From a virus: 34,339 nucleotides of DNA. Under the pieces are notes generated by a model that had not been told where the DNA came from, made no database searches, and saw nothing but the letters and a program-made list of their open reading frames with translations. A program made the position numbers and the translations under genes. Of the stretch, positions 15,290 to 16,845 are shown piece after piece. The stretch is taken from the IMG/VR virus record IMGVR_UViG_3300036944_000797, positions 1 through 34,339 of that record. One strand, given 5' to 3'. Positions within the stretch are counted from its first letter, which is position 1. The number at the start of each line of letters is the position of its first letter.

Positions 15290-15634
15290 TCAGGGGCGAT
15301 CATGAATGCCAAGCGCCGAGCGAACCGCAGCAACGATCGCGCTAACAAGATGCGCATGGTCTTCACCGATGAGGGCCGTCGCCCTTTCGATTGCTTCATC
15401 ATTCTTGCGCACCTCCTGTTGTGCGTATTTGAGCCCGCTTACCGCTTCGACGCGGTAAACTTCGTGCGGCTTTAGGGACATTCTTGGAGCCGCATACCAA
15501 GCATCCTTGGTGCGCGACACCGGCCAGCCCAATGCGCGAGCCGCCTTGTAGATCCGCTCTTTCACGCTGCCGACGTGCTTAGGCGCAATCCTCGTGTGCA
15601 GTGCATGTTGGCAAAAAGTCTCTACGCTCGACAT
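15290..15634 (-). CDS. Hypothetical protein (114 aa)
   Basis: Start ATG 15634 with GGAG nine bases upstream; an in-frame GTG at 15664 preceded by AGGAG is equally spaced and would add ten residues. The protein contains VKERIYKAARALGWPVSRTK near the N-terminus, which could be a winged or helix-turn-helix-like DNA contact, followed by a predicted helical region (SGLKYAQQEVRKNDEAIERA). No family is recognised. Confidence 0.55.
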   Translation of the reverse strand: MSSVETFCQHALHTRIAPKHVGSVKERIYKAARALGWPVSRTKDAWYAAPRMSLKPHEVYRVEAVSGLKYAQQEVRKNDEAIERATALIGEDHAHLVSAIVAAVRSALGIHDRP

Positions 15635-15854
15635 TTCGGACTTCTCCGATTCCTTTTCGGACACTTGCTACAACTCCTGTGGTTCATTGCTCCTTGTCAC
15701 GGAGAGCATTCACATGAACCGCAGGACCGAAGTTGATGGTGAGGGCGACGACGCAATACCTACCGCCGCCCCCACCTGCCCAGGCGTCCGCCGCCGGGAT
15801 AACGTCATTCCTTTTCGCAGGGTCGAAGCCTCCGCCTCGTGTGTTGGCCCTGCC

Positions 15855-15891: not shown

Positions 15892-16479
15892 TCAGAATTG
15901 CTTCCGCATATACTCACCATGGATTTTCGCAGCCGCAGCGTCATAAGCGCGCGCAGCGTCCTCTGGAGAGTCATGCCATCCGAGACTTTTGCCCTTGCCA
16001 CCAACGAAAATATAAGCACGCCACCTCCCGCCGGATACCTTTGATATCCCTTTGAACCGTCCATTCGCGGTGGCCTTAGGCCGTCTGTTGAACTGGTTCT
16101 GTTGTGGTGAAGCCGCACGAAGGTTCTCTGGCCTATCGTTCGTGGGATCTCCGTCCTTGTGGTCGATTATCTCTGGGACCTCAGACAAAGAGAGAGAATG
16201 ATGAAGCGCATAGATCACTCTATAAGCGAAACAGTCGCGTCCATTGATGCGGACACATCTACGCTTGTCCGTCTTGATGCTTCCAGCAAGCCGTCCCGCC
16301 GCGCGCCCGTTGACGCTATTCATGGCGCGACGATCTGCGAAGTGGTGAGCTGGCCTTACCCGCCAAAACAAAAGCCCATTTTCGCAATCGAGCAAGAAAG
16401 CCTCGCGCAAATATTCGAGCGTGATCAACTCGATATCTATCTTGGGCATGGGTTTTGCAGTCTTGGTGATATTGTTCAT
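15892..16479 (-). CDS. HNH homing endonuclease with AP2-type domain (copy 2)
   Basis: A 195-residue protein. The HNH core has AYRVIYALHH, then IIDHKDGDPTNDRPENLRAA, and the AP2-like C-terminus has GRFKGISKVSGGRWRAYIFV and GWHDSPEDAARAYDAAAAKI. The first His of the usual HRL is Tyr here, though the DH-N part of the motif is kept. It lies in the early operon between a hypothetical gene and a DUF551 gene and is bracketed by strong hairpins. It is probably a selfish cutting gene and not a phage function. Confidence 0.85.
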   Translation of the reverse strand: MNNITKTAKPMPKIDIELITLEYLREAFLLDCENGLLFWRVRPAHHFADRRAMNSVNGRAAGRLAGSIKTDKRRCVRINGRDCFAYRVIYALHHSLSLSEVPEIIDHKDGDPTNDRPENLRAASPQQNQFNRRPKATANGRFKGISKVSGGRWRAYIFVGGKGKSLGWHDSPEDAARAYDAAAAKIHGEYMRKQF

Positions 16480-16524
16480 GCCGTTATCCTACAATTGCGT
16501 GGTGGCTTCCCTCGGATTAATTGC

Positions 16525-16608
16525 GACCGTCCGGGCGCTTGGGAGGAGGAGACAGGCCCGGACGGTCTTTCTTGACGCGGCGGAAGGGAGGAGACACCCC
16601 CGCGTCAA
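16525..16608 (-). ncRNA. Two tandem CUCCUCCC-loop hairpins, cuckoo/CcsR-like small RNA candidate
   Basis: On the minus strand, hairpin A (16572-16608) has a perfect 9-bp stem TTGACGCGG/CCGCGTCAA, and hairpin B (16525-16567) a perfect 12-bp stem GACCGTCCGGGC/GCCCGGACGGTC; four bases separate them. Each has a 19-base loop and each loop contains TGTCTCCTCC and the exact CTCCTCCC. Known alphaproteobacterial sRNAs (CcsR in Rhodobacter, alpha-r14 in Rhizobiales, grouped as cuckoo RNAs) show such anti-Shine-Dalgarno motifs in hairpin loops. The element begins seven bases past the DUF551 stop, as a 3'UTR-derived RNA would. Expression is not shown. Confidence 0.55.
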
Positions 16609-16614
16609 TCGTGT

Positions 16615-16845
16615 TCAGTCTTTCGGGGGGGCCGGAAGCGGCATCCAATGCGTTGGCTCAAATGATAGTGAAGCGCCTTCATGGTCTACCCATTCCGGGG
16701 TGAACCAGTCTTCGTATGTGCCAACCGCAAAAACGTTCGCCACGTCACGATCTACGCAACCGCCCATTGGAACCTTGCCAAACAGGATAATCTCTGTGTC
16801 GAGCGGCGCGGTGCTGATAGGTTGCCAGTCACCAAGTGTTTTCAT
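16615..16845 (-). CDS. DUF551-family protein
   Basis: A 76-residue protein with the DUF551 pattern: DWQPISTAPLDTEIILFG at the N-terminus, a central FTPEWVDHEGA, and the ending THWMPLPAPPKD. DUF551 proteins are frequent in phages and their role is unknown. Its start overlaps the preceding gene by 17 bases, and the tandem hairpins begin right after its stop. Confidence 0.82.
   Translation of the reverse strand: MKTLGDWQPISTAPLDTEIILFGKVPMGGCVDRDVANVFAVGTYEDWFTPEWVDHEGASLSFEPTHWMPLPAPPKD

Follow-up and report, generated by a model that had tools for sequence, protein, structure and literature searches.

The cuckoo RNA family was reportedly founded by the study of Reinkensmeier and Giegerich in 2015. 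By definition a cuckoo RNA has two to four directly adjacent hairpins with variable stems and the loop motif CCUCCUCCC (PMC4504443; PMC3927594; the family is also cited in PMC10746234). NfeR1 silences ntrB and transporter mRNAs by means of three loops, redundant with one another, that act at the ribosome-binding site (PMC10746234; PMC7143759). CcsR1-4 are cut by RNase E from the 3' UTR of ccaF1 mRNA (PMC8625941), and CcaF1 takes part in the maturation of the CcsR RNAs (PMC10253847). Among phage-borne RNAs, c4 RNA of P1/P7 works near a ribosome-binding site, probably via its loops (PMC12197685).

In the literature searched, 'cuckoo RNA' and 'phage' were found together only in a review of riboregulation, where 'phage' concerns Hfq only. 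The matches listed for CUCCUCCC together with 'phage' were unrelated, and the paper on the phiLM21 prophage makes no mention of hairpins or small RNAs. No report of phage cuckoo RNAs was found; an earlier mention in the 2015 founding paper is possible.

The hairpin pair and its setting

The window, i.e., the whole 34,339-nt stretch of viral DNA that was analysed, encodes portal, terminase, major head, ssb, and integrase proteins and is therefore from a temperate phage. Its terminase relatives are mostly from Hyphomicrobiales and other Alphaproteobacteria, with some from Xanthomonas and Luteibacter. Two hairpins separated by 4 nt are found on the minus strand, the first of them 6 nt from the stop codon (16615-16617) of a DUF551 gene (Table 1). 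Read on that strand, hairpin 1 (16608-16572) has the arms TTGACGCGG and CCGCGTCAA around the 19-nt loop GGGTGTCTCCTCCCTTCCG, and hairpin 2 (16567-16525) has the arms GACCGTCCGGGC and GCCCGGACGGTC around the 19-nt loop CTGTCTCCTCCTCCCAAGC. Both stems are perfect and both loops contain TGTCTCCTCC and CTCCTCCC. The stem lengths (9 and 12 bp), the 19-base loops with their two shared motifs and the sense orientation directly after a small-protein stop had all been claimed in the original prediction and were borne out by sequence and folding; its gap of seven bases after the DUF551 stop was one too many, and the rest of the description was accurate.

Table 1. Coordinates of the hairpins and neighbouring genes in the window, and related loci carrying the pair
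Feature	Location	Strand	Description
Hairpin 1	16572..16608	(-)	9-bp stem; 19-nt loop 16581-16599 with UCUCCUCCC; from sequence and fold
Hairpin 2	16525..16567	(-)	12-bp stem; 19-nt loop 16537-16555, exact CCUCCUCCC then AAGC; from sequence and fold
DUF551 protein gene, upstream of hairpin 1	16615..16845	(-)	76 aa; Pfam PF04448, E 1.4e-6
HNH endonuclease gene, downstream	15892..16479	(-)	ATG 45 nt past hairpin 2; phrog_99 E 7e-45, PF13392 E 4.7e-9
Following operon gene	15290..15664	(-)	phrog_27989 (function unassigned); homologue 3' of double hairpin in Brucella pituitosa prophage
Convergent small-protein gene remnant	16453..16575	(+)	C-terminus ...GDIVHAVILQLRGGFPRINC...; homologues of this C-terminus at 8 further loci and in 3 named phages; bias by codon position
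Relatives with pair upstream of terminase	L175, L186, L341		Rhizobiales
Relative with pair upstream of terminase	L354		Devosia
Relatives with pair upstream of terminase	L214/L356 and L193/L351		Falsochrobactrum
Relative with pair upstream of terminase	L384		Rhizobium phage RHph_Y1_10

The CTCCTCCC octamer by itself is unremarkable, since its two copies in the window, one per loop, compare with 1.1 expected by chance. The paired arrangement is remarkable and far beyond chance: among 3000 dinucleotide shuffles of the window, none produced tandem hairpins with CTCCTCC loops and stems as strong as those observed, and only 9 of 3000 satisfied a far more permissive tandem-hairpin criterion. The hairpin region had a folding z-score of -3.6, with 1 of 200 shuffles equally good, and in a window-wide search both hairpins ranked among the longest spaced inverted repeats within 60 nt. 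The structure of the pair is thus established.

Judged by its sequence, the element fits the published cuckoo definition: the hairpins are adjacent, their stems are related neither to each other nor to those of other phages, and CCUCCUCCC is exact in hairpin 2 with one mismatch (UCUCCUCCC) in hairpin 1. It differs from the described family in being phage-borne and in this mismatch to the 9-mer. With alpha-r14/NfeR1 (RF02344) it shares anti-Shine-Dalgarno loops on variable stems, whereas ar14 has three hairpins and a U-tract after the third, and the window element has two, with no terminator U-tract and no promoter of its own seen. As in CcsR1-4 with CcaF1 of Rhodobacter sphaeroides (CIN1 locus, RF02791), sense hairpins with loops of the CCUCCUCCC kind directly follow a small-protein stop, but the upstream gene encodes DUF551 instead of DUF1127 (PF06568), which had no match anywhere in the window, and there is a single two-hairpin unit rather than four RNAs. 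The E. coli prophage sRNAs DicF, SvsR, and Pas and the P1/P7 c4 RNA are likewise phage-borne RNA regulators; they belong to other hosts, and the excerpts of their sources describe no cuckoo-type array.

No Rfam family matched the window at its gathering threshold. The best Rfam match of the region was ar14, with 26.8 bits relative to a gathering threshold of 58.8 (E = 0.0019 in a 231-nt query), while CcsR1 scored 13.2 bits relative to 65.3 (E = 0.82), and the covariance search against cuckoo, CcsR, and alpha-r14 RNAs that had been proposed as a check therefore gave no family-level match. The Rfam thresholds are also missed by 15 of the 17 phage loci examined, mostly clear tandem loci, and the authors of the family call covariance models inadequate for it (PMC3927594), which makes this test weak for the cuckoo family. 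As to the cuckoo/CcsR-like identity initially suggested, the architecture supports it; strict Rfam membership (ar14, CcsR1), a DUF1127 gene and a terminator are lacking.

Neither a minus-strand promoter consensus adjoining the hairpins nor a U-tract or terminator after hairpin 2 was found in the window, so that neither a terminator nor a self-standing sRNA gene like that of ar14 is present there. The HNH gene downstream, which has several relatives in related phages, is probably a mobile insertion. Complementarity of the loops to the start regions of phage genes was ordinary, so no specific target within the window phage emerges.

Recurrence in phages of Alphaproteobacteria

Viral contigs were scanned for two copies of CTCCTCCC 22-52 nt apart, which gave at least 120 loci, with the reversed motif as control (116 loci). 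At three stem thresholds two adjacent hairpins were formed around the motif in 30, 19, and 16 of the 120 matches listed, against 6, 1, and 1 of the 116 control loci. Detection was by a loop-motif-plus-hairpin matcher with shuffle and reversed-motif controls; MAFFT misaligns the stems. BLASTN of the hairpin region against the phage collection gave no match, no tandem hairpin was common to the DUF551 relatives, and the one relative found of a DUF1376 neighbour was also without a tandem hairpin. When every C-rich hairpin loop of the relatives was listed, the noise in both sense and antisense was too high for the listing to stand alone.

In relatives identified by their terminase the double hairpin is located 5-8.6 kb upstream of the terminase gene, and the stems are unrelated in sequence. 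The homologue of window positions 15290-15664 in a Brucella pituitosa prophage (L346, 4011-4430) is also found downstream of a double hairpin, at ~3591, and the position is therefore syntenic. The phage isolates phiLM21 (Sinorhizobium), RHph_TM3_3_3 (Rhizobium), and RHph_N28_2 carry the double hairpin as well, and RHph_Y1_10 has a degenerate form of it. Recurrence and synteny are established, and the same element, which the original prediction had suggested for related phages, is indeed present in prophages as well as in Rhizobium/Sinorhizobium isolates. In other loci the double hairpins adjoin XRE/Cro-like genes (L029, L113), genes with products that resemble DUF2312 (L036, L079), or other phage genes, and in about half of 29 loci hairpin 1 starts at most ~30 nt from the stop of a small ORF to which it is sense. 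The loops imitate the mRNA-binding sequence of the ribosome, as do those of the cuckoo RNAs in the alphaproteobacterial hosts. That related viruses keep the pair at the same place despite completely changed stems suggests that the virus probably produces a host-type regulatory RNA of its own.

The host genomes of L341 and L346 (G003, G005) have 10-17 tandem CTCCTCCC pairs each, compared to 0-1 for the reversed pattern; genome counts by order were set aside as support, being confounded by simple repeats. Three-hairpin arrays were observed in the viral contigs L017 (999-1119), L065 (2958-3076), L030, and L043, in phage or flanking host DNA, and those of L017 and L065 score above the Rfam ar14 gathering threshold. 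In L121 (7061-7142), L083 (11889-11967), and L076 the double hairpins are found just 5' of a gene near a repressor-like gene (MQT...EMADLARERGEG family) and could act in cis on translation of the adjoining gene.

Folded strand, loop motif, and convergent gene

Which strand is folded can be read from the wobble pairs. In a symmetric scoring of 42 stems that demanded a Watson-Crick pair at the closing position, G-U pairs outnumbered A-C mismatches 26 to 5 on the CCUCC strand (p = 0.0002), and an earlier count with fewer loci and no such requirement went in the same direction (24 to 10, p = 0.024); both p-values are optimistic as some loci are related. The CCUCC strand is therefore the folded RNA, in agreement with the earlier view of the element as RNA rather than DNA structure. 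Most stem positions show at least three standard pair types, which illustrates covariation and is no test of it because the loci were chosen as hairpins.

When hairpins in 109 loci were selected by structure only, loops with CCTCC or GGAGG were found in 8 of 73 tandem hairpins and 24 of 1304 isolated ones (p = 1.6e-4), a contrast that is inflated by near-duplicate prophages. The claim that the loop is retained while the stems diverge is established to this extent, the stems being unrelated both within a pair and between phages. The original prediction had named relatives with hairpins and scrambled loop motifs as evidence against it, and such relatives exist in part. CCUCC is retained in one loop only in RHph_Y1_10, RHph_N28_2, and the Falsochrobactrum prophages; hairpin 1 of RHph_N28_2 reads CACCCCCAC, and CUCCUCCUCCC stands at this place in the sister phage RHph_TM3_3_3. 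Both syntenic loops of the Brucella pituitosa and L188 prophages are C-rich and without CCUCC. The demand for a strict anti-Shine-Dalgarno sequence is therefore relaxed, and the loop motif is favoured, not absolute. In the loops of window hairpin 2, L193, L214, L341, L384, L188, and L346 the C-rich core is directly followed by CCCAAGC, which is present even in loops without CCUCC.

The loss of CCUCC from a loop in relatives that retain two strong hairpins bears on the main rival explanation, possible though on the whole doubtful, that the pair is a cis-acting 3' end element, the hairpins of which would shield the mRNA upstream, insulate it, or keep two convergent transcription units apart, the loop sequence being secondary. 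That hairpin 1 abuts stop codons and that convergent gene ends fall within the hairpins in one phage set also fits this explanation. On the other hand, the long loops share CCTCC far more often than other strong hairpins of the same genomes (the comparison above, near-duplicates included), a U-tract is missing, and in many loci sense genes run on downstream of the hairpins.

The convergent gene ends belong to a small-protein family without Pfam or PHROG match. In several loci the sequence downstream is conserved as opposite-strand codons with C-termini that resemble QAVVMRLANKRIRIRV, and differences between loci peak at codon position 3 and are lowest at position 2 in nearly all pairs. The frame reads across hairpin 2, mostly with its stop in the 3' arm of hairpin 1, and hairpin 2 is thus a dual-use stretch in one phage set; in RHph_TM3_3_3 the gene is annotated as EVB37_075. 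The C-terminus of the family reads xAVVMRLANKRIRxRV, frequently with an IPFRR-like motif further upstream, and the family overlaps the hairpins in several alphaproteobacterial phages, i.e., L390 (2517-2795, minus strand), L186, L175, L047, L036, L044, L058, L059, and L079. In the window only the C-terminus remains, its frame crossing hairpin 2 and terminating inside hairpin 1. As the HNH ORF starts inside this remnant, the HNH insertion probably truncated the convergent gene.

Since an opposite-strand ORF does span hairpin 2, the pair might be thought a product of chance, or a by-product of the C-terminal codons of that ORF or of base composition. We consider this very improbable: the shuffles never reproduced the pair, it recurs with unrelated stems and a G-U bias confined to one strand, and L029, L086, and L119 have it without a convergent gene.

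A putative regulatory RNA of temperate phages

We lean towards the reading that the element is a cuckoo-type anti-Shine-Dalgarno sRNA derived from the 3' UTR of a temperate-phage operon, with loops that pair to Shine-Dalgarno sequences. The minus-strand operon, DUF551 gene included, would be transcribed together with the hairpins, and host RNase E would most likely free the RNA from the 3' UTR, as it does for the CcsR RNAs. The two stems would then present two single-stranded CUCCUCC loops, and pairing of these with ribosome-binding sites of the GGAGG type, on mRNAs of the host and/or the phage, would lower translation of those mRNAs. Transcription, processing, and trans-acting mode are here inferred from NfeR1 and CcsR; as the phage element shares their anatomy, our best guess is that it works in the same way.

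It is conceivable, if quite unlikely, that the RNA is instead a decoy and that its loops, rather than binding specific mRNAs, titrate some host component, for example 30S subunits, RNase E, or an RNA-binding protein like CcaF1. The many cuckoo arrays in hosts and the role of CcaF1 in CcsR maturation (PMC10253847) would suit a decoy, whereas the window has no DUF1127 gene. To go further than the sRNA reading is speculative and has a low probability: a phage cuckoo lineage would reprogram host translation, and the exactly complementary GGAGGAGG loops of the convergent mRNA could serve as an in-built antisense sponge, i.e., a loop-loop switch between convergent transcripts.

Cuckoo RNAs are multi-copy in Alphaproteobacteria and, in the literature that was found, described as bacterial genes only. 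The recurrent phage version spans Rhizobium, Sinorhizobium, Devosia, and Brucella-group prophages, and some of its carriers are isolates in culture, of which phiLM21 and RHph_TM3_3_3 are tractable phages for studying the function of the hairpins. If the sRNA reading is true, phages may be a source of many host cuckoo copies and users of the same ribosome-binding-site code.
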